Both the position numbers and the translations under genes were made by a program. Shown one piece after another: positions 3,828 to 24,080 of a stretch of DNA of 64,000 nucleotides (positions are counted from its first letter, which is position 1; every line of letters begins with the position of its first letter). This stretch comes from Burkholderiales bacterium PBB2 (GTDB taxonomy: Bacteria; Pseudomonadota; Gammaproteobacteria; Burkholderiales; Burkholderiaceae_C). The stretch is from positions 1 through 64,000 of the forward strand of contig NKIM01000026.1 in assembly GCA_002255955.1 (NCBI GenBank). The letters run 5' to 3'. The notes beneath the pieces are model-generated. The model did no database searches, had not been told where the DNA came from, and was given only the letters and a program-made list of their open reading frames with translations.

Positions 3828-4307
3828 ATGCTCAAGAAACTACCGCCGGTCTTTTTTCGCATACGCACCGCGCTGATGCGCAGCGGTCGTTCCTCCCATG
3901 ATGCGGACGACCTTGTGCAGGAAGCTTGGGTTCGCCTGGCTTGCTATGAAGGTGAGCAGGTGGTTGCCAAACCTGAGGCTTTCATGATGCGAGCGGCTCT
4001 CAATTTGTCCATTGATGCTCACCGGTCCAGCGTCTGCCACGGTGAACAGCTGATGGTGGATGAGGTGGTTCTGCTCGACACCGCTCCGGGCACCGAGGCA
4101 ATCGTGCTGGCTCGGGAGCGCATGGCGCGTCTGAGTCTCGGGTTAGGGCGCCTGACCGACAAGACCCGGGACATTTTTCTGTCACACCGGATCGATGGTT
4201 TGACCTACCAAGAGATTGCCCAGAATCATGGCTTGAGCATCAGCACGGTGGAAAAGCATGTCGCCAAGGCCACCCTGCAGCTGACTAGCTGGATGGAAGG
4301 TTGGTAG
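3828..4307 (+). CDS. FecI-like ECF sigma factor
   Basis: The protein has 159 residues, the usual size for the FecI group. Region 2 (about residues 8-75) includes HDADDLVQEAWVRL. Region 4 (about 100-155) includes LTDKTRDIFLSHRIDGLTYQ and EIAQNHGLSISTVEKHVAKA, a helix-turn-helix that would read the -35 element. The start has GGAGGG 8 bases upstream. The stop overlaps the GTG start of a FecR-type regulator, so the two are co-translated. In the known Fec/Fpv systems such a sigma factor recruits RNA polymerase to the gene of a TonB-dependent receptor. No receptor adjoins this pair. The only one in the window is about 26 kb away, outside the island. Confidence 0.9.
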   Translation: MLKKLPPVFFRIRTALMRSGRSSHDADDLVQEAWVRLACYEGEQVVAKPEAFMMRAALNLSIDAHRSSVCHGEQLMVDEVVLLDTAPGTEAIVLARERMARLSLGLGRLTDKTRDIFLSHRIDGLTYQEIAQNHGLSISTVEKHVAKATLQLTSWMEGW

Positions 4308-5413
4308 TGGTTGCTGAGTTTGAGGCTGATCCGGGCAGGGCAGGACGTGTGGACAGTGGGCGTGTTGGGCTTGCTGCGGAAGCGGGAGGACATTCACCGC
4401 CTTTGGTGACGCCTGACATCGCTGCTGAAGCCGCTGTGTGGATCGCGAGATTGCATGGCCCCAGCCGTACGCCAGCTATGGTGCGCGAGTGCTTGGCTTG
4501 GCAGGCCCAGTCACCCGCGCATCGCCTTGCCTTCGAACGGTGTACGGAGACATGGCAGGAAGTTACAAATCTCAGTCTCAGTGCTTATGCAAACACCTGG
4601 AGCAGCGCCGAGAAGGTTTCAGGGCATCGCTTGAGAGTCACCAAGCCTATGCAGTGGGCCTTGGCGGCGGTGTTCCTGGCGCTGGCCTCCGTGCTGGTCT
4701 TGGCGCTGCAGCCATCGCGAACTGGAGAGGTGTACGCCACGGAAGTGGGGGAGCACCGGGTGGTGATGCTCGCGGATGGCAGTCGCATGTCTCTGAACAC
4801 CGCCACGAAAGTTCGGGCAAGTCTAAGTTCGTCTCAGCGGCTCGTTGAAGTCGAGGCTGGGGAGGCGCTGTTCGAAGTGGCCAAGGACGCGAGCCGCCCC
4901 TTTCTGGTGACTGCGGGTGAGACTGCGGTCAAAGCGACTGGAACCGCTTTTCTCGTGCGCTTGCTGCCGAGCATGCAAGAGGTCAGCACGTCGCTCGAAG
5001 TGACCTTGATTGAGGGACAGGTTGTCTTGCGGCCTCAAGAAGGTCTTGTGGGCTTAGCGGCGGGTGCTGGTCCGGTCGAGATGACTGCTGGGGAGCGTGT
5101 GCGCTTTGATGGCGCGATGGCCGCTTCACGGTTTTTAAAGGTGCGAGTTGATCGGTCAAGTCTGGACCGAGCTGTCGCCTGGACACGTGGTGAGGCCTCG
5201 TTTGACGATGTCACCCTCAATGAGGCCGTGGCGGAAATGAATCGCTACAGCTCGAAGCCCATCGTGATCGTCCATGCCGACAGGCTCAAGGCGCTGCGAG
5301 TCAGTGGCCTGTTCAGGACGGGCGACAGTGTGAGCTTTGCGCGAGCTGTGGCAGCGCTGCATGGTTTGGACGTCCGAGAGCACTCTGATCGTTTGGAGCT
5401 GGCGCCGCGCTGA
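4307..5413 (+). CDS. FecR-type anti-sigma / signal transducer
   Basis: The protein has 368 residues. The start is taken as GTG at 4307, overlapping the TAG of the sigma gene by one base; the first in-frame ATG is about 55 codons in and would cut the N-terminal domain. Residues about 40-90 form the cytoplasmic DUF4880-type sigma-binding region (AVWIARLHGPSRTPAMVREC, then LAWQAQSPAHRLAFERC). One membrane helix follows (QWALAAVFLALASVLVLAL). The periplasmic FecR domain contains LADGSRMSLNTATKVR and EVEAGEALFEVAKD. A C-terminal STN/DUF4974-like domain (FDDVTLNEAVAEMNRYS) would touch the signalling domain of a receptor. The partner receptor is not adjacent, which is unusual for this pair. Confidence 0.9.
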   Translation: MVAEFEADPGRAGRVDSGRVGLAAEAGGHSPPLVTPDIAAEAAVWIARLHGPSRTPAMVRECLAWQAQSPAHRLAFERCTETWQEVTNLSLSAYANTWSSAEKVSGHRLRVTKPMQWALAAVFLALASVLVLALQPSRTGEVYATEVGEHRVVMLADGSRMSLNTATKVRASLSSSQRLVEVEAGEALFEVAKDASRPFLVTAGETAVKATGTAFLVRLLPSMQEVSTSLEVTLIEGQVVLRPQEGLVGLAAGAGPVEMTAGERVRFDGAMAASRFLKVRVDRSSLDRAVAWTRGEASFDDVTLNEAVAEMNRYSSKPIVIVHADRLKALRVSGLFRTGDSVSFARAVAALHGLDVREHSDRLELAPR

Positions 5414-5641: not shown

Positions 5642-5751
5642 GGTTCGGATGCGGTCCGGATATGGTCCGCTTTTGGTCCGGATACGGTCCGGATACGGTT
5701 CGCTTACGGTCCGGATATGGTCCGGATATGGTCCGGTTTCGGTCCACATCC
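5642..5751. repeat. Tandem array of ten 11-bp units (GGTCCGGATAY)
   Basis: Ten contiguous 11-bp units can be read without a gap: GGTTCGGATGC, GGTCCGGATAT, GGTCCGCTTTT, GGTCCGGATAC twice, GGTTCGCTTAC, GGTCCGGATAT twice, GGTCCGGTTTC, GGTCCACATCC. GGT is invariant and TTCG/TCCG is nearly so. The period is close to one helical turn. The array sits between fecR and the nucleotidyltransferase cassette in 750 bp with no supported gene. Minus-strand frames through it give an 11-residue peptide repeat, but no start or codon pattern suggests a gene. Confidence 0.85.
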
Positions 5752-6001
5752 GCCTGATTGCTGTCGGTTGGCTAGCGACCAGGCTCACCGCGCGCTCGGA
5801 AAGTTAGGCATCGGCGGTGATCTGGGCCTGAAATTCAGCGCCTGGCCGCAGCTTTGAAGACCAAGAACACTAGGAAAACTTGAGTGCAGGATAGGCTAGC
5901 TGCCAGCATTTGGATGCCAATCTTGCCTTTCCGCGCGCTGCTGTGGATTGGGGTTTTGGCGGACCCGGGCGCTATGTTGATCTGATGGATTTAGAAGGCA
6001 G

Positions 6002-6164: not shown

Positions 6165-7376
6165 ATGCGGAGATGGCAAGTTTTGCTGGGAGCGGTGCTC
6201 GCCGGCTGGAGTTTGAACGCCCATGCAGCGGAACTGGGCATCGCGGCGTTCAATATCGCGTGGGCCGGCTCCGAGGCCGATTTCAACGAGCACATCCGGG
6301 TCTGCACCAGCCCGCAGGTGAACTGGTGCGACACGCGCGCCAAGATTGCCAAGGGCGAGACGGCCCCCCCGCCCGAAGAAGACGTCCGCGCAAAGCGGTG
6401 CCAGACGGAGTTCGACACTGCCGCCGGCGGTGCCGGCAAGGGCATGCTCGTTGCACCGTGCAACGCGTACAAGCTCACCGCGTCGAAGTGGAAGAAGGCG
6501 GCGCCCGGGATCTATGCCGAGAAGCTTGACGGGCTGCGCCAGACCGTCGATGGCCTCATCCGGGCGCGGCACGTGGACGTTATCGCTTTCCAAGAGGTCC
6601 GCTCCGCCGGCGTCATCAAGGAGATCCTTGGTAGCCATGCGGCCGACTTCGAGGTTTGCGTTGCGGACCACACGGCGTTCCAGACGGTCGGATTCGCGTG
6701 GCGGCGCTCGGTGACGTCCAAGCCCGGGAAGTGCGCCCCAGAGGCCGGGCTCGCCATCAAAGAGAACCCTCAGGATCCGGCGTCTCTGCGGCACCTGCGG
6801 CCGGGCGTGGCCTTGTCGCTCACCATCGGCAAGGATCCCCTCACGCTGATGAACGTGCACCTCAAGTCAAGCTGCGCCAACCTCATCACCAGCCCGGCCT
6901 TCAAAGGCCATGAACTGACCAACCCAGACTCGGCCTGTCAGGTGCTGAACCGGCAGGTCGCGCCGCTGGAAGCCTGGATAGACGGCGTGGCCAAGACTTC
7001 GCCCCTTTTCGTCGTGCTCGGAGACTTCAACCGCAGGCTGGACGAGGAGGCTGCCAAGGCTGTGGCCCCCAAGGACGTGCGCACGGACCACACGGATCCT
7101 GCGGCACCGAACAAGACGGGCCCCAACGGTGAGGTCAGCTCCAGGTTCCTCTGGCAGGAGCTGTCTGATGGAGACCCGACGCTGGTCCAGGTTCCGCCGC
7201 CGGTGGCGACGGACTGCAAGGGCTTTGAAGGGCTGGACCACATCTTGATCAGTGCAGCGCTGAACAAGCGGCAGACCGGCCCGCTCTCGTCGGAGAAGGT
7301 CAAGGTCGAGCAGAAGGACAAGCAGTTCATCATGACCAGCGACCACTGTCCCCGGATCACCAGACTCACCCTCTGA
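6165..7376 (+). CDS. Secreted endonuclease/exonuclease/phosphatase-family protein
   Basis: The protein has 403 residues with an N-terminal signal peptide (RRWQVLLGAVLAGWSLNAHA, cut after Ala-21/22). The metal-dependent EEP fold motifs are all present in order: AFNIAW (about 28-33), FQEVRS (about 140), MNVHLKSS (about 228), VLGDFNRR (about 284), GLDHILIS (about 357) and SDHCPRI (about 391). These correspond to the Asn, Glu, Asp-x-Asn and Asp-His residues used for catalysis, as in DNase I and related phosphodiesterases. Two family-specific stretches with several Cys residues lie at about 45-90. GGAGG precedes the start at 6 bases. It is the first gene of the same-strand cassette, 61 bases before the LOG gene. 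Being exported, it would act on a different side of the membrane from the others, so functional linkage is uncertain. Substrate unknown: nucleic acid, phosphodiester or lipid. Confidence 0.85.
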   Translation: MRRWQVLLGAVLAGWSLNAHAAELGIAAFNIAWAGSEADFNEHIRVCTSPQVNWCDTRAKIAKGETAPPPEEDVRAKRCQTEFDTAAGGAGKGMLVAPCNAYKLTASKWKKAAPGIYAEKLDGLRQTVDGLIRARHVDVIAFQEVRSAGVIKEILGSHAADFEVCVADHTAFQTVGFAWRRSVTSKPGKCAPEAGLAIKENPQDPASLRHLRPGVALSLTIGKDPLTLMNVHLKSSCANLITSPAFKGHELTNPDSACQVLNRQVAPLEAWIDGVAKTSPLFVVLGDFNRRLDEEAAKAVAPKDVRTDHTDPAAPNKTGPNGEVSSRFLWQELSDGDPTLVQVPPPVATDCKGFEGLDHILISAALNKRQTGPLSSEKVKVEQKDKQFIMTSDHCPRITRLTL

Positions 7377-7437: not shown

Positions 7438-8619
7438 ATGAAAACTGAAGTTCGCAATGCTGCTGAGCTGGCTGCCTGGTTGACGCTCCCCGGACCTGCG
7501 GTCATCCAGGATCTCGACCTCACGGCCGCGGCAGCGGAGTTCGCCAAGCGCGACCTCGCCGGCTGCGCCTTCCTGGGCTGCGTCATGGCCCCTGACCTGG
7601 CCAAGGCGGCGGGGGAAGCTCACTGTCTGGTACTTCCGCCCATCGAGGCGTCGGACGAAGCCCCCTTCAATCCGTACTCGGTGAGCATGTACACGCCGTG
7701 CGAACTTTACGATGGCTACGACCCGGACGATGTCGGCACCTACGACAGGTATTTCGACCGCAAGGTGTATCTCTCGTACATGTCCCTTGGTCCGCCGGCC
7801 GAGCTCAAGCCGGTGGCGGCCGATGTCCTGCTGCTGCGCCGGATGCATGACGCCACGATTGCCACCGCGCTGGACGCCTTCGTCAAGGGCGCCCAGGGGC
7901 GCATCGTCGCCATCATGGGTGGCCACGATCGTGCCCGCAGCGACGCGCTCTACCTCGAAGTGGCCATGCTGGCGCTGGAGTTGACGCGCAAGGACTACAT
8001 CATCGCGACCGGCGGTGGCCCAGGCCTCATGGAGGCCGCCAATCTGGGCGCCTATGCCGCCGGCTTTGCTGACCCCGAAGCCGTGGTTAAGGCGTCCGTC
8101 GAGCAACTGAAGGCGGCGCCGACCTACAAGGACGCCAACTGGCTGAAAGTCGGCTACAAGGTCTGGAAGGGGCTGGGCAAGCCGGTCGATTTCCAGAAGA
8201 GCCGCAACCTCGGCATCCCCACCTGGTTCTACGGGCACGAGCCGCCCAACCTGTTTGCCACGGACATCGCGAAGTACTTTGAGAACAGCGTCCGGGAGGA
8301 GGGCCTGCTGGCCATCGCGCATTCCGGCGTGCTTTTCGCCGAGGGCAATGGCGGCACCGTGCAGGAGATTTTCCAGGATGCCTGTCAAAACTACTACCGC
8401 ACGTACGCTCAGCTGAAGAGCCCGATGGTGCTGTTGGGGACGGCGTACTGGAACTCGGCCTATTCCGACTACAGCAATCCAGCCGACCGCCGGCGGCCGC
8501 TGTACCCGGTCCTGAAGAAGCTGGCTTTCGAGAAGGGCTTCGCCGACTACGTGCACATCACCGACAGCACAACCGACGCGATCGATTTCCTCGTCAAGCA
8601 CCCGCCGGTCAAGGCCTAG
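7438..8619 (+). CDS. LOG/SLOG-type Rossmann nucleotide-binding protein
   Basis: The protein has 393 residues. The N-terminal 145 residues are of unrecognised type. From about residue 154 there is a LOG-like Rossmann fold: GRIVAIMGGHDRARSD (154-169), ATGGGPGLMEAANLGAY (190-206) and FAEGNGGTVQEIFQD (300-314). In LOG phosphoribohydrolases the last motif is PGGxGTxxE; here it reads EGNGGTVQE. The Glu and the GT are kept, while the Pro and one Gly are replaced. LOG enzymes release a base from nucleoside monophosphates. Wider SLOG proteins sense or process nucleotide signals in conflict systems (Thoeris ThsA carries one). The gene precedes two nucleotidyltransferases and a phospholipase on the same strand, so a role in making, sensing or removing a nucleotide signal is a reasonable inference. 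No catalytic claim can be made from sequence. Confidence 0.8.
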   Translation: MKTEVRNAAELAAWLTLPGPAVIQDLDLTAAAAEFAKRDLAGCAFLGCVMAPDLAKAAGEAHCLVLPPIEASDEAPFNPYSVSMYTPCELYDGYDPDDVGTYDRYFDRKVYLSYMSLGPPAELKPVAADVLLLRRMHDATIATALDAFVKGAQGRIVAIMGGHDRARSDALYLEVAMLALELTRKDYIIATGGGPGLMEAANLGAYAAGFADPEAVVKASVEQLKAAPTYKDANWLKVGYKVWKGLGKPVDFQKSRNLGIPTWFYGHEPPNLFATDIAKYFENSVREEGLLAIAHSGVLFAEGNGGTVQEIFQDACQNYYRTYAQLKSPMVLLGTAYWNSAYSDYSNPADRRRPLYPVLKKLAFEKGFADYVHITDSTTDAIDFLVKHPPVKA

Positions 8620-8690
8620 GCTGGCTGGCCGCTCACCCTTGGACGGTGAGCGCGGCGAACAACACAACTCGAACACGGAAGAGGGACGGA

Positions 8691-9833
8691 ATGGCCGATA
8701 TCGGAAAGCGCTTGATCCAGCTGCGCGCGCGGCGGGTAGGAGACGATCGCCCGCAACGCACGGCGTTGAGTGCCGCGCAGACGCTCGACGTCATGGCGAA
8801 GTCGCTGTACCAGTCGGACGAGAAGTGGGAAAGGAACCGACAGGCCCGCCCCTACACCGCCTATGCACTGGGTGCGATGCAAGAAGTCGGGGAGACCTAT
8901 ACCAGGGTCAGCGTGGAGGAGGCCGAGCGCGTGGGCAAGCAGCTTGTCCCACGGCTGGCCCGCCGCGGCATTCCTGCTGAGTACCGCCTGCAGGGATCCG
9001 TGCCGCTGAACGTGCACATCCGCCGTGTGAGTGACGTGGACCTGCTGTTGCTGGACACCAGCCATCGGACGTACGACAGGCAAGGCGTCATGGCGGCGAG
9101 CGGCGCCTATCTCTATCAACCTGCGAGGAGCTCGGTAAGCGTGCTCGGCTCGCTGCGCGCGGGGGTGGTATCGAGCTTGAGGGAAGCCTTCCCGGCTGCG
9201 ACAGTCGATTCCTCGGGCGCAAAGGCCGTCACCGTTTCCGGTGGATCGCTGCAGCGCGTGGTCGACGTCGTCTCCTCGCACTGGCATGACACCATCCAGT
9301 ACCAGAGTTCTCGCATGGAGCGGGATCGCGGCGTCACGATTCTCGACTCCAAGAAGGTCACGACGATCGACAACCTGCCATTCCTGCACATCCACAGGGT
9401 GGGAGAGCGATGCGACGGAATATTCGGAGGGCTGCGCAAGTCGATCCGCCTGTGCAAGCAGGTCAAGGCCGACATGGAGATGGAAGGCAAGACGGTCTCG
9501 TTCCCGAGCTTCGACATCGCAGCGACGATGTATCACGCCGACATGGGGCAGCTCCGAATGGGCCTGGTGTACGAGCTGGCCATCCTGGCCGAGACGCAGC
9601 GCTTCCTTGACTATTTGCACCATAACAAGGACTACGCCAGGACGCTGGTGACGCCGGACGGCCTGCGCCGCATCTTCGACGATCCGAAGAAGCTGGACGG
9701 CCTCACCCAACTCTCGGTTGAGATGGACGATCTGCTCAAGCAGGTCGCGCGGGAGCATGGCTACGGCGTTTCCACGTATCTCTCCACGGAAGACCTTCGC
9801 ACCAAGCTCAAACTCACGAACGTCGAGGCATGA
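8691..9833 (+). CDS. CD-NTase-like nucleotidyltransferase 1
   Basis: The protein has 380 residues from the ATG at 8691 (GAGGG 5 bases upstream); a start 45 bases earlier is open but has no such site. The polymerase-beta-type active site is complete: G102-S103, then 11 residues, then D115-V-D117 in RRVSDVDLLLLD, and a third acidic residue, D192, in QRVVDVVSS. The GS-x11-DxD spacing is that of cGAS/DncV-like and OAS-type enzymes, which make cyclic or linear oligonucleotides. The N-terminal 95 residues are helical and charged. The C-terminal half (about 200-380) would be the helical lid domain. The stop lies 4 bases before the phospholipase start, so the two are in one operon. Product and clade cannot be told by eye. 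A non-signalling nucleotidyltransferase (for example a MNT-type toxin or antitoxin) is less likely at this size. Confidence 0.8.
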   Translation: MADIGKRLIQLRARRVGDDRPQRTALSAAQTLDVMAKSLYQSDEKWERNRQARPYTAYALGAMQEVGETYTRVSVEEAERVGKQLVPRLARRGIPAEYRLQGSVPLNVHIRRVSDVDLLLLDTSHRTYDRQGVMAASGAYLYQPARSSVSVLGSLRAGVVSSLREAFPAATVDSSGAKAVTVSGGSLQRVVDVVSSHWHDTIQYQSSRMERDRGVTILDSKKVTTIDNLPFLHIHRVGERCDGIFGGLRKSIRLCKQVKADMEMEGKTVSFPSFDIAATMYHADMGQLRMGLVYELAILAETQRFLDYLHHNKDYARTLVTPDGLRRIFDDPKKLDGLTQLSVEMDDLLKQVAREHGYGVSTYLSTEDLRTKLKLTNVEA

Positions 9834-9837
9834 CCCC

Positions 9838-10785
9838 ATGGCGGAAATCCCGGAATTTGCAGCGCCCGACCGGCCGCTGCGCGTCTTGACGCTCGATGGC
9901 GGTGGCGCCAAGGGCTTCTACACGCTCGGTGTGCTCACCGAGATCGAGGCCATGGTCGGCGGGCCGCTGCATGAAAAGTTCGATCTGATCTTCGGTACGA
10001 GCACCGGATCCATCATTGCATCGCTGATCGCGCTGGGCCAATCCGTTGACGAGATCCTGACGTTGTACCGCGCACATGTGCCGACGGTGATGTCCGAGAA
10101 GACGCGCGCCGGCCGAACGCGGGCGCTGACCGAGTTGGCCAAGACGGTCTTCGGCGATGCCAGCTTCGCGGCAGTGAAGACCGGCATCGGCGTCGTGACC
10201 ACGAAGTGGTTGACCGAGCGGCCCATGATCTTCAAGGCCAGCGTGGCCCAAGCCCATGGTCGAGCGGGCACCTTCGTGCCGGGATTCGGCGTGTCGATCG
10301 CGGACGCCGTCAGGGCATCTTGCTCGGCCTACCCATTCTTCGAGCGCACCATTGTCAAGACGTCGAAGGGCGAAAGCATCGAGCTCATCGACGGCGGCTA
10401 TTGCGCGAACAATCCGACGCTGTATGCCATCGCGGATGCGGTGCACGCGCTCAAGCGAGACCGTCAGGACATTCGCATAGTCAGCGTCGGCGTGGGCGTG
10501 TACCCCGAGCCGAAGCCGCCGTTCTGGATGCGGCTGGCCAAGAGGTACGTGGTAAGCGTCGAGCTGCTGCAGAAGACGCTGGAGATCAACACGCAGTCCA
10601 TGGATCAACTGCGCCAGGTGCTGTTCCACGACGTGCCCACCGTCCGCATCAGCGACACCTTCGCCCAGCCGGAGATGGCCACGGACCTGCTGGAACATGA
10701 CCTGGCCAAGCTGGACGTGCTGTTCCAGCGCGGTAGAGAGTCCTTCGCGTCGCGCGAGAAGCAGCTGCGCGAGTACCTGATGTAG
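9838..10785 (+). CDS. Patatin-like phospholipase (CapV-like effector)
   Basis: The protein has 315 residues. It has the oxyanion-hole motif DGGGAKG (20-26), the nucleophile elbow GTSTG with Ser-55 (53-57), and the catalytic Asp in DGG (185-187), which is the full Ser-Asp dyad of patatins. [19 protein letters not shown] near the start is typical of bacterial cytosolic patatins. In type I CBASS the CapV patatin is activated by a cyclic dinucleotide and degrades membrane phospholipids, which kills or stalls the infected cell. Here the gene sits between two GS-x11-DxD nucleotidyltransferases, 4 bases after one and 14 bases before the other. GAGG lies 10 bases upstream. The effector role is inference from context; the fold is clear. 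No HORMA, E1/E2 or JAB ancillary genes adjoin. Confidence 0.88.
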
Positions 10786-10799
10786 GGGCAGAGTTCGCC

Positions 10800-11693
10800 A
10801 TGGCCATTCCCGAGTCTCAGTTGGTGACCTGGTCACACCAGGGGTCCATCGCCCAATCGTCGACCACCTACAACAGCATCAAGGGGGTCCTCGAAGGCAA
10901 CGGCACGCCGTACGCGGGCAAGAACTACAAAGTCTTCCTGCAGGGCTCTTACGGCAACGACACCAACATCTGGGCGGAGAGCGACGTCGACATCGTCATC
11001 TGCTTGAACGATTGCTGGCAGCGGGATATTGAGGCCTTGTCGCCAGATGACACGGCCGCGTATCAGGGTGCGTTCGTCGACGCCACCTATGGGCATGTCG
11101 AGTTCAAGAACGATGTGGTTGCTGCGTTGACGGCCCGGTACGGGGCAGACGTCAAGGTCGGCGACAAAGCCATCGCCCTCGCGGCCAATGGTACCCGGCG
11201 CAAGGCGGATGTCATCGCTGCGATCCAGTTCAGGCGCTACTACAGGTTCAAGTCCGCCTCCAATTCGACCTACGACGAAGGCATCTGCTTCTACAACGCG
11301 GCCGGTGAGCGCATTGCAAACTATCCGCGCCAGCACTCGGCCAATCTCACGCAGAAGCACAAGGACACCTCGCAATGGTTCAAGCCCGTCGCGCGGGTCT
11401 TCAAGAATATGCGCAGCCGCCTCGTCGACGACGGCCTCCTCAAACCGGGCGTGGCGCCGTCTTATTACATCGAAGCGCTGCTCCACAACGTGCCGAGCGG
11501 GCTATTCGGCACCAACTACCAGAGCTCTGTCGCCAATGTCATCGACTGGTATCGCAACGAGGCTGACAAGACGCAGCTTGTCTGCGCCAACCACCAGTAC
11601 TACCTGCTGCGCAACGGCGCGCACACCTGCTGGAACCAGGCCAACTGCGATGCGTTCGTCGACGCTGCCGTGGAGCTTTGGCATAGCTGGTGA
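10800..11693 (+). CDS. CD-NTase-like nucleotidyltransferase 2
   Basis: The protein has 297 residues. The active site is G49-S50 (LQGSYGND), 11 residues, then D62-V-D64 (SDVDIVI), with the third acidic residue D137 in [10 protein letters not shown]. This is a compact CD-NTase layout with a helical C-terminal half ([13 protein letters not shown] and [18 protein letters not shown]). It is not a duplicate of the 8691-9833 gene: outside the catalytic motifs the two share little. It starts 14 bases after the phospholipase and ends the cassette; dispersed repeat C follows about 100 bases later. It presumably makes a nucleotide second messenger. Whether it and the upstream enzyme make the same, different or a joint product is open. 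Confidence 0.85.
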
Positions 11694-13047: not shown

Positions 13048-13422
13048 ATGCAAGCCAGCCCCGTAATGGAAGTTGACCGCACCCATGTGCTGGGCAAGGC
13101 CACGCAACGTGCCGCCGAAGCCCTGGGCCTGAACGGCCGCGAGTTGGCACTGACCGTCGGATTCAGTGAGCCGACGGTGTCACGCATCGTGAAAGGTGAG
13201 CGTGGCATCGATCCCACTTCCAAGGAAGGCCAACTCAGCCTCATGCTGGTGCGGGTGTTTCGCTCACTCGACGCGCTGGTGGGCGGCGACGCCGCAAAGC
13301 GTCTAACCTGGATGAAATCGCACAACTCCGCCCTGAACGGTGTTCCGGCGACACTCATCGTCACGGCTGAAGGCCTGGGTCGAACACTGGCCTACCTCGA
13401 CGGCATGCGCGCTCCGATCTGA
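13048..13422 (+). CDS. Xre-type antitoxin of a RES toxin-antitoxin pair
   Basis: The protein has 124 residues and belongs to the Xre/MbcA/ParS-like antitoxin family. The N-terminal helix-turn-helix has LNGRELALTVGFSEPTVSRI and VKGERGIDP. The C-terminal half (RVFRSLDALVGGDAAKRLTW, NSALNGVPATLI and LGRTLAYLDGM) is the conserved region that occupies the active-site cleft of RES toxins. AAGGAAGAG lies 6 bases before the start. The final TGA overlaps the ATG of the toxin by one base. It should bind its own promoter with the toxin. An AT-rich promoter-like stretch with a CTTTC/GAAAG inverted repeat lies at about 13005-13035. Confidence 0.92.
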   Translation: MQASPVMEVDRTHVLGKATQRAAEALGLNGRELALTVGFSEPTVSRIVKGERGIDPTSKEGQLSLMLVRVFRSLDALVGGDAAKRLTWMKSHNSALNGVPATLIVTAEGLGRTLAYLDGMRAPI

Positions 13423-14147
13423 TGACCACGGCTCCAATCGAAATTCCGTTCGCTTGGGAACCAGCCTGGTTTCAGACTTGCGCGCCGGCCGAAATGACAG
13501 CCTGGCGAGGCGTGGAAAGCCAAGCACAAGTCGCCACATGGCGGCTCGTCGATTCGAGCGCCGAACACGACGCATTGGAAGGAATGCTGGAGGCTTCGAA
13601 GCCACCGCTGCCTGAAGGCTGCCAGGGACTTCACTATTTGCTGTTCACACCGTTTCGATACACCTCGCCCTACCAGTCGCGGTTTCGGCGCCCGAACGAG
13701 GCTGGCATCTGGTATGGCGCCGAATCGGTGGAGACCGTGTGCGCCGAGCTCGCATATTGGCGCCATCGCTTCATTCTCGATTCAGCAGGCTTGGCCAAGG
13801 ATGCCGATGGACTGCTGACGCTGCACACGCTTTTTCAGACTCGTGTCCAAGGTCAGTCAATGAACCTGACTGAGGCCCCTTGGGATGCTGGGCGCGCCCT
13901 GTGGACACACGGCGCCGACTACAGCAGCACACAGGCAGTCGCCGCCGAGGCTCGCGTTCATGGCGTCGAGTGGATTCGTTACGAGTCGGTGCGTTGCCCC
14001 GGGACGCACTGCGCAGCGGTTCTTAGCCCGCGGGCACTGCGCTCAGTTCCGCCCTTCGGCATGCAGGAATGGGTCTGTAGTACAACCCGCGCTCGGGTGA
14101 TCGTCACCCACAAGGACAGCGGCACGACCTTCAGCTGGGATTTCTAG
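13422..14147 (+). CDS. RES-domain toxin (NAD-degrading family)
   Basis: The protein has 241 residues. RES toxins carry conserved Arg, Glu and Ser residues. Here TAWRGVES supplies the Arg, GIWYGAESVETVCAELAYW the Glu, and RYESVRCPGTHCAAVLSPRA the later Ser segment. The family degrades NAD+ and is structurally related to ADP-ribosyltransferases. The protein is longer than the typical 150-180 residues because of an N-terminal extension of about 45 residues (IEIPFAWEPAWFQ), found in one subgroup. It is co-translated with the upstream Xre antitoxin through an ATGA overlap. It probably works as an addiction or abortive-infection module that stabilises the island. Confidence 0.9.
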   Translation: MTTAPIEIPFAWEPAWFQTCAPAEMTAWRGVESQAQVATWRLVDSSAEHDALEGMLEASKPPLPEGCQGLHYLLFTPFRYTSPYQSRFRRPNEAGIWYGAESVETVCAELAYWRHRFILDSAGLAKDADGLLTLHTLFQTRVQGQSMNLTEAPWDAGRALWTHGADYSSTQAVAAEARVHGVEWIRYESVRCPGTHCAAVLSPRALRSVPPFGMQEWVCSTTRARVIVTHKDSGTTFSWDF

Positions 14148-14471: not shown

Positions 14472-17400
14472 TTAGGCGCCCGGCCGCTCGGCCGCCTGAA
14501 GCCACTCGCCAAGCATCGAGGTCGGCACGGACAGGAACAAGTCCTGCAGGGCGACGACCCTCCGAAGCATCTCCCCACTGTCCGAAGCCTCGCGCTCTTC
14601 TGCCTCCCTGAACAGAGACGTGAGCAGGGCCCCAAGTGGCTTTGGGTCGTAGAACGGCGTCGTGTCCCGGGCCTTGCAGATGCCGGCAATGATCTCCGCG
14701 ATCTCGAGCGCCTGGTCCGGGTCAATCTCGGCGAAGCGGCTGAGCCACTCGTCAATCCCGGGAGCAAGATTGCCGCCGGGCTCCGGGCCCACGCCACCGT
14801 TAAGGTACACGGAGCGGAACAAACCCAGCGGAATACGCGGTACGGGAGATTGTTCCCGGAACAGTGCGCTCATACGTTGAAGCAGCGGCGCGTGGGCCAC
14901 GGCATGGGAGGCGGCGGCAGTCATCCCTGAGAAGCATTCAGACGCATGGGTGGCGTTGCCTGCGTTGGCGACCCACACCGAGACGGCGCCATCCCATGCG
15001 GATGCCTCAGCACGCTGCGCCAGCTTCTCAAGCAGGACCTGCGAAGCGATCTGCCCCTCAAGCACAGCGAGCGCAGACAGGCGCGCCCAGACCTTCAGCG
15101 CAGTTGGCAGGTCGGAGTGCTCCATCCTGTCGATGTACGGCTTGGCGCGCGCGAAGAGCTTGCCCGTCGCGTAGTACAGCGTGTGAGCTGCGTACTTCCA
15201 AACCCGCTGATCGTTCGCAGAGAACGCCGCATCGAACAGTTCCCAGCCCAGCTCGCTCTTCGTCTGCATATAGGCCAGTTGCTGAACGACTACCGCGCGC
15301 ACGGCAGGATGGCAGTCTTGCGCCAGGCGCCGGAGCGCTGGCGCCAGAAGCGCGGGCAGCTCCCGCCCCTCCTCAAACAGGCGATTCGCCAGCGAGAGGA
15401 GCCCTTCCGCCAGTTCGCCGCGCGAGCTATTGATGGCCGTGAAAATCAGATCATCGTCCTGCCGCTCGCCGCAAGGCGGGTCTTCCGCCCTGATGTGCGC
15501 CGGTGCGAGGAAGGCCACACGCGCCGCGTGGTCGTCGCTCGACGCCACCGATGCGCAGCCAGATAGCGCCGTTGCCCCCTCCCGCCTTCCGGTCCAGAAG
15601 GCCGGGTGCCGCTCCAGTTCCACCAGCAGCAACTCCAGGATTTCCGAGCGGTCGACATCTTCCTTGGCCCTCCACGCCGAGTTCTGGAGGTTGCCGTACC
15701 GATATCGCAGGTAGTGCGCTGCGCCGTCGAATACCGCCCGCTTCGACGGGTCGGGCAGGTCATGCCAACGCAGCGCAAGGAGCTCGAGAAAGCGACGTGG
15801 CGCCTCACTCGAAACCGAGTGCAGCAGTTGATTGACCGACTCGAAGCCGCCAACGAGTTCGTGGAATGGACGGAGGCCGTTCCCGAGGGTCATGCTGCTG
15901 TCCAGCAAGGCAACCAGCGCATCGTCGCTGAGTCCCGTCAGTTGGTCTGCGTGAAACGGAGCGCCCACCATACCGCTTGAGGAATGGATGTCCGGCCGGC
16001 CGTCAGGTGGCGGAAGTTCGACCGCCATGCGGGCAATGGCCGACGTCACGATTGGCGAGCGCAACAACACTGGAATTTGAGTAAGCAACTCATAGCGCTC
16101 GACCTCGACCCAGGGCTTGGACCGGCTCTCGTACTCGCTGAGCCTTTGGAATATGTGCCGTTCGGCAAGTTCGATCGCCTCGCCGAGAAAGGGGGCCACC
16201 GCCCAGATCAATCGACCCAGCTCGTAGCGATCCGTCAGCCGCGGGCGTCGATCATCGGCAAAGAACTGCTTGGCCGCGTCGGCATTGCGCTCCGGGCAGT
16301 CGGTCATTGCCAGAACGCCGATGTAGCGCAAGGCGCCGCAGTCGGCCAGGCAGATCCTGAGTGCGTTGGCGCTCCACCAGCCATCATGAGCCTTCGCGCG
16401 CTGAAGGATGGCGGCCTCGATCGACCGTACCAACCTTTGCAGGGGCGACACATGCCGCACCGCATGATTGGAGTGTGTGACCGAATAGCTCGTCTCTTCG
16501 CGCAGTTCATTGTTTGGCCCTTCTGCAACTTCGCCAGGGGCAGAGTAGGGGCCGAGCGCGAGAGTCCTGCTCCAGGACTCGAGGGCCGACACGGCCAGGT
16601 TCAGCAGAGCATCGGAGTCGGCGAAGCGCTGGAGCAGTTCCTTTTCGTGCCTAAAATTCGATTCATCGCATTTCAGCTTCTCCTCGATCTCGCTGTCCCT
16701 GCTTGGGTTCGTCGGTACGTCTCCGGCGATGTACTTCCAGACGAGGGCGTCGCCCCGAGCATCGTGGCGCGCCCACTGCAGGAGGAAGTCGCCCAGAGAG
16801 TCGTGATCCCCGGACGGCAGACTGAGCAGGCTCTCCAGGAGTGCCTGAGCATCGACCTTCTCGAGATGCTTGAAGCCGCGGACCATGTAGCTGAACTGGC
16901 CTCGAAGGTTCCTCTCCTTCGCCACGCTGGATGCGGCAAGCCGCGTCCAGAATGCAAAGACGCCCGCGGGATCGTCATTGACCCATGCCTGCAATTTCCG
17001 GAAGTGGATTCCAAGCCACCTCGTATCGCCATCGGCATCCAGCATGGGCACCAGGTTACGCATCCAGAAGTGGTGCCAGGCCAATTTGTGGCCGTGGTCG
17101 TACACCGACGCGAAGTGCTCTGGATGTTTGCGGAACAGGTGCCGTACAAGGCTCCAGTCGCGATCATCAGGTTCGCAGGCGGCATACGACTCGCCGATCA
17201 GCCGCTTGATGTGGAACGCCGCGTCGCTGTCGAAGACTGATCGAACCTGCGCGCCGAAGTTTGCACGGTCGGTCAAGCGGAGGTGCGCGAAGAACGCGCG
17301 GATCGCCGGCCTGATGAAGGGCACGGGCTGCAGCGACTGGATGAACTCGAGCAAGCCCAGACCACGGCGGACGCCATCGCGAACCGCAAGCGCATCAAGC

Positions 17401-19052
17401 AGCGTCTGGTGTCCGAAGCCGACGTCGCCGCGCCCGCTCTCGAAAAGCACGTTGGCACTGCACAGGCGGCGCAGCAGGTCATCGCTGGCCTGTACCCTGC
17501 TGCGCCGCAGTTGATGACGGCGCTGGGTCAGCATCTCGTTGGCCATCGTCTCGATGGCAATCATCGCCGGTGTGCCCAGGTTCGAATCCCCGGCAATCAC
17601 GATATCCAGATAGAGGTCGGTCAGTTCCTGTGCGCTGGAGAGGCTCTTCCGCTCGGACTTGGTGGCGACATCCGCAAAGAGCGCCAAGTTGCGGGGATTG
17701 CCGAGCAGTTCCCGCGTTGACGCATCAAGGGCGGCAGTGTCGACGCTGAGCCCGCTCAGCAGCGGCTCGACAACATCGCTCCAATCCAGCAGGCCGATCT
17801 CGACCGTTTGGTCCCAGCGCCGACCTGCCAGATTCCAGTTGTATTGCAGGTCGAAGCTGCGGCAGGCCACGACGACGCAGGCATCAGGAATCATCCTCAA
17901 GCGATCAATGAGGGTCAGGAAATAGGTCAGGCACTGCGTCTCGCGGTTCAGCGAGAGTACGTCCAGTGAGTCGATGATGACGACGACGCGTTTCCATTCG
18001 GACATTGCCGACACCAGCGCAGGAATGTCGGGATCCAGGCCCAGAGCCACGCGGCCCTCCTGGTCGTTGGCGTCGGCGTAGTCGCGCGCCTGCAGGAAGA
18101 GCGTGGCGACGTCGGTGCGAGCTTCCAGTTCCTCCGCGAGTTGCAGCAGCACGCAGGTCTTGCCCGACCCCGGACCGTCGGTCAGCAGGACGCTCCCACC
18201 GGCGGCGATTGCATTCCTCAGGTCCGCCACCGCAGTGCGCTCGACCCGCTTGCCGGCGATCTCGCGCCGCCACTGGCGCCCGATGGCCGACATTCCTCTT
18301 AGCTTGCCCTCTACATCCGCCTGGACGCGTGGGGGGGCAATGGCACACCCCTTGTCCTGGAGAATCTGGAGCAACTCGCTTCGCGAAATGCGATGGGTCT
18401 CGGCGACCAGGGATGGATCGGCCGTGCGGGCGCCCAGCCCATCGAGCACGGTCCAAAGCGCGTTGTAGGCATCGTCCGCACGGGTGACCTGCTGAGCAAG
18501 GTCCAGCTTCAAATGGGTTTGGAGTTCACCTAGCCCGCGGGTCGGGTCAAACCTGATCCTCCGCAGCAGCGCGTGAATGTCGCGCGTGCCCTTTGCAAGA
18601 GCATCCTTCCATGCAGCGTTCAGTTTGGCCAGCTCGGCTGAAAGCGCCTTCGGGAAGCCACTCTGAAATGCAGCCAAGTCTGGCGTCTGATGTGCCCGCT
18701 CAACCAATCGTCCGAGATCGCCGAAGTCTGCTCGCGAGTAGAAGCGTACTTCCACATTCGGCTCAGCCATCAAGTGCTCAGCTGCTTTCTTGAGATCTTC
18801 TTCGAGCTCGGTCACCTTCCAAGCGGTGAATCCAGGCTCGTTCTTTTTGCATTGGCAGCAGATCTCGTGGCCAGAGGCTTGGCCAAGAATGACGTCGTCG
18901 ACTGGCGCCGGTATGCCTCCCGAGATGACTCGGGTCGAGTCGAGTTCCATCCAGACAAGGTCTGGGTCCTTGATCATTCGAATCGCCCAGTCCATGGCGA
19001 CGCAAACTTGGTAGATGTCGCCGCGACTGGAGCGTGTGCCCGCAAGGCTCAT
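14472..19052 (-). CDS. Avs-like STAND NTPase with N-terminal nuclease-like domain
   Basis: The protein has about 1,526 residues from the ATG at 19052, which has AGAGGGAAG 4 bases upstream; an in-frame GTG 54 bases earlier lacks a site. Domains in order: residues about 8-110 resemble a PD-(D/E)XK nuclease of the Cap4/Mrr type (GDIYQVCVAM, VDDVIL at 51-56, then EICCQCKK at 63-70, giving D...QxK). An NTPase follows, with Walker A GPGSGKT (293-299) and Walker B VVVIIDSLD (356-364). A long C-terminal helical-repeat region fills the last 900 residues (DCHPAVRAVVVQQLAY looks HEAT-like). Nuclease, STAND ATPase and repeat sensor is the plan of Avs anti-phage proteins, which recognise phage portal or terminase and then cut DNA. 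It is a single-gene unit and neighbours other defence genes. Exact Avs type not determined. Confidence 0.8.
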   Translation of the reverse strand: MSLAGTRSSRGDIYQVCVAMDWAIRMIKDPDLVWMELDSTRVISGGIPAPVDDVILGQASGHEICCQCKKNEPGFTAWKVTELEEDLKKAAEHLMAEPNVEVRFYSRADFGDLGRLVERAHQTPDLAAFQSGFPKALSAELAKLNAAWKDALAKGTRDIHALLRRIRFDPTRGLGELQTHLKLDLAQQVTRADDAYNALWTVLDGLGARTADPSLVAETHRISRSELLQILQDKGCAIAPPRVQADVEGKLRGMSAIGRQWRREIAGKRVERTAVADLRNAIAAGGSVLLTDGPGSGKTCVLLQLAEELEARTDVATLFLQARDYADANDQEGRVALGLDPDIPALVSAMSEWKRVVVIIDSLDVLSLNRETQCLTYFLTLIDRLRMIPDACVVVACRSFDLQYNWNLAGRRWDQTVEIGLLDWSDVVEPLLSGLSVDTAALDASTRELLGNPRNLALFADVATKSERKSLSSAQELTDLYLDIVIAGDSNLGTPAMIAIETMANEMLTQRRHQLRRSRVQASDDLLRRLCSANVLFESGRGDVGFGHQTLLDALAVRDGVRRGLGLLEFIQSLQPVPFIRPAIRAFFAHLRLTDRANFGAQVRSVFDSDAAFHIKRLIGESYAACEPDDRDWSLVRHLFRKHPEHFASVYDHGHKLAWHHFWMRNLVPMLDADGDTRWLGIHFRKLQAWVNDDPAGVFAFWTRLAASSVAKERNLRGQFSYMVRGFKHLEKVDAQALLESLLSLPSGDHDSLGDFLLQWARHDARGDALVWKYIAGDVPTNPSRDSEIEEKLKCDESNFRHEKELLQRFADSDALLNLAVSALESWSRTLALGPYSAPGEVAEGPNNELREETSYSVTHSNHAVRHVSPLQRLVRSIEAAILQRAKAHDGWWSANALRICLADCGALRYIGVLAMTDCPERNADAAKQFFADDRRPRLTDRYELGRLIWAVAPFLGEAIELAERHIFQRLSEYESRSKPWVEVERYELLTQIPVLLRSPIVTSAIARMAVELPPPDGRPDIHSSSGMVGAPFHADQLTGLSDDALVALLDSSMTLGNGLRPFHELVGGFESVNQLLHSVSSEAPRRFLELLALRWHDLPDPSKRAVFDGAAHYLRYRYGNLQNSAWRAKEDVDRSEILELLLVELERHPAFWTGRREGATALSGCASVASSDDHAARVAFLAPAHIRAEDPPCGERQDDDLIFTAINSSRGELAEGLLSLANRLFEEGRELPALLAPALRRLAQDCHPAVRAVVVQQLAYMQTKSELGWELFDAAFSANDQRVWKYAAHTLYYATGKLFARAKPYIDRMEHSDLPTALKVWARLSALAVLEGQIASQVLLEKLAQRAEASAWDGAVSVWVANAGNATHASECFSGMTAAASHAVAHAPLLQRMSALFREQSPVPRIPLGLFRSVYLNGGVGPEPGGNLAPGIDEWLSRFAEIDPDQALEIAEIIAGICKARDTTPFYDPKPLGALLTSLFREAEEREASDSGEMLRRVVALQDLFLSVPTSMLGEWLQAAERPGA

Positions 19053-19960
19053 GCTTCTTCCCTCTAGTGCTGTGGGTTGCTGTTCATGTTGTAGCTGGTG
19101 GCCCACCCCATCCAGCCTAGTCCGTTGTACTTCGTGGCGGTGAAGTCTGTTGGGGCCGGAACGCCAGCAGCAGCTCGCTGCTTCGCAGTGGAGCCGAGCT
19201 TACATGTCGTGGCGATGGCACGGTCTCGCTAGTGCCGAGCCACGGCTTCCGCCCGAAGCCATGTCCCGGCAGCGTTGTTCCCGCAAGACTAGCCATTGCG
19301 TTCGGCGACTTGCAGTCAGACGCAGGAAAGCCTGCCGTACCGGTGCAGGCGTTTGGGGTCCTTTTCGCGCAACAGCACGACGTCGCTCTCATCCCGGGTC
19401 GTCTTGTCGAGGAGTTCCAGTCTGGCCAAGTCGCGCAACGAGTCCCTAGAGTTCAATAGGACCTGCTCATAGGGCGCCCGCGCGAGCAAGGTGACGGGCA
19501 CCTGCGCGCGCACAGCCGATCCGACACCGTATTCGAGCTCAGTGGTCGCTGCTTCGGGACAAGCTGGGAGCGCCGAGTGACAGGACCACAGCCGACGCTG
19601 GCGCCGCGGGGGAGAGTGACTGCAACCGCTGCATAGATGCCGACCGACGGCCAACGATGCCTTCAGGCTGATCTGAGACGTTCGACGCCCGAGTCCTGAA
19701 CGGCGCCAACGACGAACACCGGTGATCCAGTGCCGGCGGCCTTTACCGAAAGCGTTACCGCCGATTCTTGTTGCCCGATCAAGGCCGGCCTAGCAAGCCG
19801 GACCGCCCCCCGGATTGCTGCAGGCTCAAGCGACCCTGAGCTGTATGTCAGTCAGGCCGCAACCGTCTGACTTTAACCAACTGGCCTCCGCGGAAACCAG
19901 GGCGGTTCAAGTATGCTCAGTGTTGATGCTTGACTATCCGGATTTCCAGGCCTTCTAGAC
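19053..19960. other. 900-bp stretch without a supported gene
   Basis: Several short open frames exist. A minus-strand one near 19316-19560 reads DSLRDLARLELLDKTTRDES, then DVVLLREKDPKRL, which looks like eroded coding sequence, but I cannot name it and its upstream part is not protein-like. The remainder (19650-19960) is consistent with decayed mobile DNA. Confidence 0.4.
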
Positions 19961-22183: not shown

Positions 22184-23524
22184 TCATGTGCCTGTTGTGC
22201 ATGCCCTCTCTAGCTCCTCTAGTGCTGCGTGCAGCTCGGGCAAGTAGTCGTACGCGTCGTAGTGGCGGTCTTGCACTCCACTGATGCCATGGCTTTGGAG
22301 CCTGCCGCGTGTGTCCTTGCTGATCTTGAGGCTGGCCAGGATGGTCTCCACGCCGCTTCGAATTCGTTTGGTCTGAAAGCAGGCGATCTTGTCGCCCACG
22401 GCATCGCTGGCCCAAGCGCTCAGTGTCGAACTGACGACATGGGTTGCGCCGACGTTTTCGCCCGCGACTGTAGAGATTGCATAGTCACCCGACAGGTCTA
22501 GCTGCTGAATGGCTTCTTGCGCTTTCACGGTCAGGGGCAGGGTATGCCTTCGTGCCGGCCGACCTGGGCGCCCCTTGCCGTCGAAGATCGTGATGCTGTC
22601 AGCGGACACATCAGCAGACTTCAGTCGGACCAGTTGTTCGATTCGCTGCCCGCCTGTGAGCAGGTGCAGTCTGAGCGTCGCGCCCTTGATGCCAGGCAAA
22701 TCCTTGATGCAGTTCCAATAGACCCGCATTTCGTCAGCAGATAGCGGGTTCTTGTCGGCCTTGTTTGCTTCACTGTTGGCGGCGGTTTCAGCTGCGGGGT
22801 TGTGCTTCACTTGGTAGCCCTTGAATGCAACCGGAATTTTGGGATTCGTCTTGGCTTTGCGAGCGACCTCGTAGGCCGCTCCCATATAGGCCCGGAGCTT
22901 GTTGGCTGTACGTTCTTTGCCCGCCTCGATCAGTCTTCGGCTCATGTCCGCCACTTGCTCGTCGGTCACGTCCGCAGCGGGCTGACTTGCCGTTTCAGGA
23001 AAGGCCACTATCGCGTGATTGGTCAAAATGGATTTGGCGTCCTTGTATGAGGTTCGGCCGAGCGATTCAAGATAGAGCCAATAGGCTCTCAGCAATTCGG
23101 CCAGCGTGTATTTGCTCCGCCGATCAAGCTCGGCTTGAGCTTGGGCTAGTGCAGCCGCTTGGTCGTTGATGGCTTTGGCTTGGGCTTCTGCCTTGGCTTG
23201 TACAAGTCCCGCATGCCCACCTTGGCTCTTGGCATCGTCGTGCTGCAAGGCCAGTCTTGCTGCTTCAGCCGTTGCCGCGGCAATAGTCCAGCGCCCGTCG
23301 ATGGGGGCTAGGGTCTTGGGCGGCAACTTACCGTCATACAGGCCAATCTCTACACGATCAGTCCCACCTTTGAATGTGTAGCGCCAGTAGAGTTTCACCG
23401 CTCCGCTGGATAGCTTGCGGGCTTGCAGTGCGCCGTTTGGAATGACCTTTGCCAGCGTGATGAACTGTCCTGGCTTCAGGCCTGCGAGTGTCTCGCCAGC
23501 AGTTTTTTGTACTTTGGTCGCCAT
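22184..23524 (-). CDS. Tyrosine-type integrase of an integrative element
   Basis: The protein has 446 residues from the ATG at 23524, with GGAGG 8 bases upstream. Residues 1-150 form an arm-binding/DUF4102-like region followed by an Ala/Gln-rich helix. A SAM-like core-binding domain follows (YTLAELLRAYWLYLESLG). The catalytic domain is C-terminal: box I Arg in LLTGGQRIEQLVRLK, then KRIRSGVETILASL where HxLRR is usual (the His is replaced), QSHGISG, and the nucleophile Tyr in RHYDAYDYLPE. It lies about 190 bp from a partial tRNA-Lys gene, with four direct repeats in its upstream region. It should catalyse site-specific integration and excision at that tRNA. The His substitution may lower activity or be a subgroup trait. 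Confidence 0.92.
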   Translation of the reverse strand: MATKVQKTAGETLAGLKPGQFITLAKVIPNGALQARKLSSGAVKLYWRYTFKGGTDRVEIGLYDGKLPPKTLAPIDGRWTIAAATAEAARLALQHDDAKSQGGHAGLVQAKAEAQAKAINDQAAALAQAQAELDRRSKYTLAELLRAYWLYLESLGRTSYKDAKSILTNHAIVAFPETASQPAADVTDEQVADMSRRLIEAGKERTANKLRAYMGAAYEVARKAKTNPKIPVAFKGYQVKHNPAAETAANSEANKADKNPLSADEMRVYWNCIKDLPGIKGATLRLHLLTGGQRIEQLVRLKSADVSADSITIFDGKGRPGRPARRHTLPLTVKAQEAIQQLDLSGDYAISTVAGENVGATHVVSSTLSAWASDAVGDKIACFQTKRIRSGVETILASLKISKDTRGRLQSHGISGVQDRHYDAYDYLPELHAALEELERACTTGT

Positions 23525-23540
23525 CCCTTGCCCCTCCATC

Positions 23541-23604
23541 TGGTGCCAGTCTGGTGCCAGTCTTGCCTCAGCGATTTGGAGCTGGTGCCAGTCTGGTGCC
23601 AGTT
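23541..23604. repeat. Four direct repeats TGGTGCCAGT(C/T), likely integrase arm sites
   Basis: Copies start at 23541, 23552, 23583 and 23594: two tandem pairs with an 11-bp period, the pairs offset by 42 bp (four helical turns). Each unit with its preceding C reads CTGGtgCCAG, a short inverted repeat. Lying between the integrase start and the tRNA-derived attachment site, they are good candidates for arm-type integrase or excisionase binding sites, or for an operator of the integrase gene. Confidence 0.7.
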
Positions 23605-23716: not shown

Positions 23717-23765
23717 CGGACTCTTAATCCGTAGGTCGAGTGTTCGAGTCACTCAGGGCCCACCA
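23717..23765 (+). other. 3' portion of tRNA-Lys(CUU): attachment-site remnant
   Basis: The 49 bases run from the anticodon stem to CCA: CGGA-CTCTTAA-TCCG (anticodon CTT), then a T-arm GAGTG-TTCGAGT-CACTC and the acceptor strand AGGGCCC-A-CCA. Upstream sequence does not supply the D-arm or the matching 5' acceptor strand, so the gene is incomplete. Such 3' duplications mark the far end of elements that integrate in tRNA genes. The intact tRNA-Lys should be at the other end, left of this window. Confidence 0.8.
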
Positions 23766-23783
23766 AAAATTAAGAATGAAATC

Positions 23784-23820
23784 AACAGCTTAGCGGCGTA
23801 GGTCGCTAAGCTGTTTTTCT
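23784..23820 (+). terminator. Intrinsic terminator after the tRNA-Lys remnant
   Basis: AACAGCTTAGCG and CGCTAAGCTGTT form a perfect 12-bp stem around an 8-base loop, followed by TTTCT. It probably belonged to the original tRNA-Lys gene. The following 23821-24080 has no gene that I can support. Confidence 0.8.
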
Positions 23821-24080
23821 TTGTACTTCTGATTTTCGGCCCACGCAGGCACCATGTAGCCGTGGGCACCCGCTGAGGCCGGCGGTTTCTGAGAGCGTGG
23901 AAGGTAGACCTCCAACTCGGCCCCGCCATCGCCCTCTAGACAGCGGTTGCCTGATGCGCTGTCGGTCCTGTCGAGGTATCTCAGCACCGCGCACTTCCCA
24001 GTAGGGGTGAGTCAGGTTGACGATCGAGTGGGAATGATCTCGTGGGCTAGAAACTTAGGTTCAGGCCCCGAGTGAAAGCA

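Follow-up and report, generated by a model that had tools for sequence, protein, structure and literature searches.

The array, the nic region and the leading genes

The window, the complete 64,000-nucleotide stretch analysed here (G000:C60:1-64000, other contigs of the PBB2 genome being cited as C27, C63 and C34), carries on its plus strand fecI (3828-4307), coding for a FecI-type ECF sigma factor of the leading region, and fecR (4301-5413), coding for a FecR-type anti-sigma regulator, followed by ten 11-bp direct repeats at 5642-5751 (plus strand; consensus GGTCCG(G/C)(A/T)T(A/T)Y), here proposed as the StbA-type box array of an origin of transfer. A conserved spacer (5752-5883, plus strand) leads from the array to the oriT core GTGCAGGATAGGC TAGCT GCCAGCATTTGGATGCCA (5884-5919, minus strand), which starts 132 bp downstream of the array and represents a MOBP nic region that the window has in common with the PromA plasmids pIPO2T and pTer331.

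Direct reading of the sequence confirmed the ten tandem units that an earlier note on this DNA had placed at 5642-5751, and TRF likewise reported 9.5 copies of a period-11 repeat at 5642-5745, with a second call as period 33 (score 152). GGT(C/T)CG recurs at 11-bp spacing in nine consecutive units, as against a run of at most two when the 64-kb window was shuffled 200 times at the mononucleotide level. The unit GGTCCGGATAY given in that note is exact in five of the ten units, the deviating five being GGTTCGGATGC, GGTCCGCTTTT, GGTTCGCTTAC, GGTCCGGTTTC and GGTCCACATCC; the statements that TCCGGA lies within each unit and that two unit forms alternate were both overstated, the hexamer being found in the five exact units and the alternation not being strict. 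Positions G1, G2, C5, G6 and T9 are invariant in the 51 units that seven homologous arrays together provide. Open reading frames of 156 (plus strand) and 144 (minus strand) amino acids do overlap the array, as a decayed coding repeat would require, but its period is not a multiple of three and the copies differ naturally by the gain or loss of one 11-bp unit at a time, which puts them in different frames, making this origin barely conceivable.

The reverse complement of GTGCAGGATAGGC, GCCTATCCTGCAC, matches the MOBP nic consensus, and a short palindrome, GGC(N5)GCC, lies within the core at 5894-5904, so that the site combines a nic core with an adjoining short inverted repeat in the manner of a PromA-like MOBP oriT. 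Judged by the MOBP consensus, the nick would fall on the minus strand in 5'-TATCCTG^C-3', between plus-strand bases 5887 and 5886. The motif GCAGGATAGGC plus GCC is present in intergenic regions of pIPO2T, pTer331, pDSM1084, pAV3334-1 and pACM6; in pDSM1084 it adjoins mobC and the relaxase gene, and in pIPO2T and pTer331 it falls within the oriT segments that the RA3 authors aligned (PMC4175270), the oriT of RA3 being an experimentally tested one. The RA3 oriT core was found here to be GCAGGAT.

A degenerate nic pattern applied to 401 family genomes gave 28 matches in 23 genomes and none for the reversed control. By our own sorting, about ten of these matches have mobC or a relaxase gene within 1.5 kb, seven have stb genes but neither mobC nor relaxase, four have fecR only (three of them in the genome of the window), and the remainder have neither. 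One pair of nic-like motifs (L223/L233, G326:C1:3444632 and 3444741) lies only 109 bp apart.

Recurrence of the unit and its relation to stbABC operons

The PBB2 genome contains three array-plus-nic units, on contigs C60, C27 and C63, and three exact nic motifs, every one beside an array. Further array copies are held by a member of the same genus, G010, apparently Paucibacter sp. DJ2R-2 (loci equal to L018 and L080), and in all the 11-bp unit and nic co-occur in seven loci of three lineages; absence of the array from all relatives, which the earlier note would have counted against it, was checked and is contradicted by these copies in other elements. The block fecI-fecR-array-spacer-GTGCAGGATAGGC...TGGATGCCA is some 85-89% conserved over about 2 kb in C60, C27 and three G010 copies, while C63 retains only the last 200 bp of fecR. 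In most copies similarity runs from approximately 3860-3885 to approximately 5919, beyond which the cargo differs: SspBCD-type genes in C27, type I methylase/specificity genes in L018, an Mrr-like gene in L080 and, on our reading, chromosome-like genes shortly after the site in C63. The spacer is about 82-88% identical among islands, that of PBB3 included, and within the aligned region GAGTGCAGGATAGGC is invariant in seven of seven copies with flanks that diverge by about 12%. At G010:C1:267665 and 280866, a degenerate array plus nic and a relaxase pseudogene interrupted by three stops lie 13 kb apart, possibly representing a stage of decay. A distant blastn search with the array region against plasmids returned no match because the units diverge.

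Copy number differs between islands by exact 11-bp units, as might be expected of a neutral tandem satellite generated by slippage, and an expanded satellite was among the readings first offered. Against this, several elements have the array in one and the same position with respect to nic, fixed at about 130 bp from it although the surroundings are unrelated, and 30 other stbABC operons have this period with units of different sequence (vide infra), which leaves slippage a very improbable explanation.

The fecI-fecR pair is intact leading-region cargo under purifying selection (dN/dS between island copies of 0.04-0.16 for fecI and 0.24-0.36 for fecR). That the array lies directly after the pair, as previously noted, is correct, but the association is positional and a functional link is not supported. 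An operator or promoter array by which FecI/FecR regulate themselves would be in keeping with the 230 bp separating fecR from the array in the C60, C27 and G010 islands; however, arrays of the same unit occur without fecIR in L081 and L090 and hence do not accompany the pair, at most of 30 fecR loci the 700 bp that follow the gene contain no array, and the array lies downstream of fecIR rather than upstream, so that control by FecI/FecR is most unlikely. Most fecIR homologues are likewise without an array. On our reading a TonB receptor with a short signalling N-terminus follows fecIR in L244, and no TonB receptor was found next to the island fecIR pairs.

The two matches that combine array and nic without fecIR are from Burkholderiales PBB3 (L081) and Schlegelella koreensis (L090). 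In both, the array is directly upstream of genes for a helix-turn-helix protein of 136-142 amino acids and a StbB ATPase, and of a third small gene; in L090, stbABC occupies one side of the array, and the other side presents nic followed by genes for a mobC-like RHH protein and a relaxase. The two StbB proteins score 278 and 282 bits against NCBIfam NF041292 (cut-off 200), and that of L081 is 47% identical to StbB of R388 (E 5e-82). StbA is poorly conserved: the L081 protein has no significant BLAST match to R388 StbA, the link to R388 being provided only by the L090 StbA (E 6e-6) and the family profile (E 4e-5), and a PDB profile search with the StbA alignment gave chance-level matches only. 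StbB homologues were detected in 38 of the 401 family genomes.

Autocorrelation of the region before stbA in 30 stbABC loci, two plasmids among them, yielded a single outstanding signal at lag 11 (excess 0.080, t=9.4), repeated harmonically at lags 22 and 33, lag 11 being the best lag in 21 of the 30 loci; omission of the four close relatives left the effect in place (t=9.6, n=26). Both positive controls behaved accordingly, R46 giving 11 as its best lag and R388 giving 11, 22 and 33 as its top three. The unit sequences are specific to each element, GGACC-type units marking L081, L090/L178 and L179. These data show that stbABC operons of the family are generally accompanied by StbA-type arrays of 11-bp units whose sequence is specific to the element, and StbA-DNA specificity therefore becomes readable from sequence. 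The predicted recognition helix of StbA has the form K-RE in L081, L177, L178 and L179 (STVKRE, TTLKRE, TTIKRE), a clade with mostly GGACC-type boxes, and elsewhere mostly the form Q-RE (STVQRE); the residue before RE is a possible determinant of specificity.

The window array thus shares with stbDR arrays direct repeats of about 11-bp period, and in L081 and L090 repeats of the window's own unit type occupy the stbDR location between nic and stbA. In the window, for lack of stbABC, the array has nic on one side and fecR on the other with no stb gene adjoining it, and the claim made is consequently for an orphan site rather than a complete Stb system. Since fecIR lies beyond the stb genes on the array side in L247, L258 and L263, the window probably lost stbABC, most likely from the order fecI-fecR> <stbC-stbB-stbA - array - nic>.

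Cargo, integrase and the search for a relaxase

Past nic, five cargo genes follow on the plus strand: a gene for an endonuclease/exonuclease/phosphatase-family protein (6165-7376), one for a SLOG cluster4-like protein scoring under the Pfam cut-off (7438-8619), a CBASS CD-NTase gene (8646-9833; PADLOC PDLC00772), a CBASS patatin phospholipase effector gene (9718-10785, with a true start probably near 9838) and a second CBASS CD-NTase gene (10800-11693; PDLC00788). The stretch 8646-11693 accordingly presents a two-cyclase CBASS, a single patatin effector lying between two CD-NTases that belong to different PADLOC families. The island also encodes a RES-domain protein of a toxin family (13422-14147) and a 1544-amino-acid protein with a weak match to the candidate defence family PDC-M54A (14472-19106).

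At the right end of the island, a tyrosine-integrase-like gene with an open frame (22184-23539, minus strand) is followed by an att-like 79-bp copy of the 3' end of tRNA-Lys(CTT) plus downstream bases (23717-23795, plus strand), and DNA common to relatives resumes near 24015 by comparison with G010. The full tRNA-Lys copy is on another contig, C34, and the left end of the island lies beyond the end of contig C60; the island boundaries are therefore incomplete, with an integrase and one att-like repeat found. The CTGGTGCCAG repeats beside the integrase (23539-23600) recur just after the intact tRNA-Lys(CTT) on C34. The tRNA-Lys 3' copy adjoins the integrase, yet the neighbouring core DNA is not beside tRNA-Lys in G010. 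A tRNA-Asn call by ARAGORN at 46116-46207, within a large copper-type P-ATPase ORF, is probably spurious.

The integrase of the window is 86.5% identical to that of a G010 island (G010:C22) that carries ssb, a DUF932-like gene, stbCBA, array, nic, cargo, integrase and the same tRNA-Lys fragment as the window, and for which no relaxase was detected in 20 kb. The possibility that the repeats are integrase-arm sites was dropped because arrays recur beside mob and stb genes rather than beside integrases.

A cognate MOBP relaxase stands beside such a site in L090: its product scores 45 bits against PF03432 (cut-off 24.6), although below the NCBIfam MobP1 cut-off, and is about 38-42% identical to the TraS/TraR relaxases of PromA plasmids and 46% identical over 166 residues to Nic of RA3. 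No relaxase, mobC or stb gene was found on the window island. In the PBB2 genome, neither PF03432 nor the L090 relaxase as query detected a relaxase, and StbB gave no match in a search run without a positive control of its own; the assembly is a draft in 90 contigs, from which a helper plasmid may be missing through loss or oversight, and it is within this draft that the island shows an oriT without a relaxase. Of 18 genomes of the genus, five encode relaxases 57-65% identical to that of L090, and one of these five is G010, which also bears the oriT.

An assembly without a relaxase could also be taken to mean that array and nic are left over from an integrated mobilizable element that lost its mob genes, and that the site is now disused; the degenerate G010 array near a relaxase pseudogene and the truncated fecR of C63 would agree with such a history. 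We consider this a possible but unlikely account, given that GAGTGCAGGATAGGC is identical in all copies despite the divergence of its flanks, the invariant positions are kept in six of seven arrays, purifying selection acts on fecI and fecR, the integrase gene has an open frame, and related relaxases occur in the genus, G010 among their hosts.

Proposed working and comparison with known systems

An integrase-bearing CBASS island in a genome with no detectable relaxase or StbB looks, for that reason, like an iOriT in need of a helper. Taken together, the array, the nic region, their conserved linkage, the Stb and PromA homologies and the lack of any detectable relaxase in the assembly indicate that the array is very probably the StbA-type accessory half of a MOBP oriT on a relaxase-less, helper-mobilised integrative element of the iOriT type, derived by loss of stbABC. 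The earlier note's suggestions of a regulator array and a partition-like site both pointed in the right direction, as is indicated by the precedent of R388, whose StbA-bound stbDRs serve in regulation, stabilisation and the gating of conjugation (PMC3098194), but the note missed the nic site at 5884.

On the proposed mechanism, a StbA-like helix-turn-helix protein supplied by a helper would bind the 11-bp boxes, one per helical turn and on one face of the DNA, and helper MobC and relaxase would introduce a minus-strand nick at 5886/5887, within TATCCTG^C. The integrase would excise the island before transfer, and the island would then be threaded into the recipient, led by the array and fecR-fecI, with the cargo bringing up the rear. 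The means by which defence islands move when they have no phage or conjugation genes are largely an open question, and these observations suggest that those with such sites pass from cell to cell on DNA-transfer machinery borrowed from other elements. If so, one helper could mobilise several islands of one genome, some with different defence cargo, and an 11-bp box array plus a GCAGGATAGGC nic would provide a searchable signature for them. Considerably more speculative, and in our estimation doubtful, is the notion of a relaxase-less Burkholderiales defence-island lineage sharing one oriT, in which the helper StbA would choose the islands and the FecI/FecR pair would let an envelope signal control excision, transfer or establishment of the immunity genes.

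The closest parallels to the array are the stbDRs of R388 (IncW) and R46 (IncN), which like that of the window are direct repeats of period 11 in a leading region. The R388 repeats, situated next to oriT between nic and stbA, are 9 bp long with 2-nt spacing and form two sets of five, to which StbA binds; StbA and its sites control both stability and transfer, and the stb genes are the first to enter the recipient (PMC3098194). StbB of R388 and R46 belongs, like that of the relatives described here, to the SGXXGK[T/S] group. The window differs in its missing stbABC, its chromosomal location, its repeat sequence and an oriT partner that is MOBP rather than MOBF.

For the nic region, the PromA plasmids pIPO2 and pTer331 have a GCAGGATAGGCT....GCC core like that of the window, whereas pIPO2T and pTer331 are without an 11-bp array and their oriT adjoins a par region and mobC; the IncU plasmid RA3 has the GCAGGAT core, and the L090 relaxase is about 46% identical to that of RA3 and about 38% to those of PromA plasmids. 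SGI1 and its kin are also integrase-bearing islands, theirs being transferred by a helper plasmid, but SGI1 encodes mobilisation proteins of its own (PMC6414798), and no mob gene was found in the window island.

Integrative elements with an oriT but without a relaxase have been described as iOriTs (PMC11389934), and oriT mimics whose specificity resides in accessory-protein sites are known from staphylococcal plasmids of the pWBG749 type (PMC8136818). Both resemble the window in combining an oriT with accessory-protein sites, in the absence of a relaxase and in their dependence on a helper, which the window island too would require for mobilisation; the window is distinguished from those examples by its chromosomal setting in Burkholderiales, StbA-type array, defence cargo and FecI/FecR pair. 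The individual parts, stbDR-like arrays, a MOBP oriT and iOriT elements, are hence of known kinds, while the chromosomal, multi-copy, defence-carrying version in Burkholderiales, together with its leading-region fecIR, is to our knowledge of the open-paper literature new.
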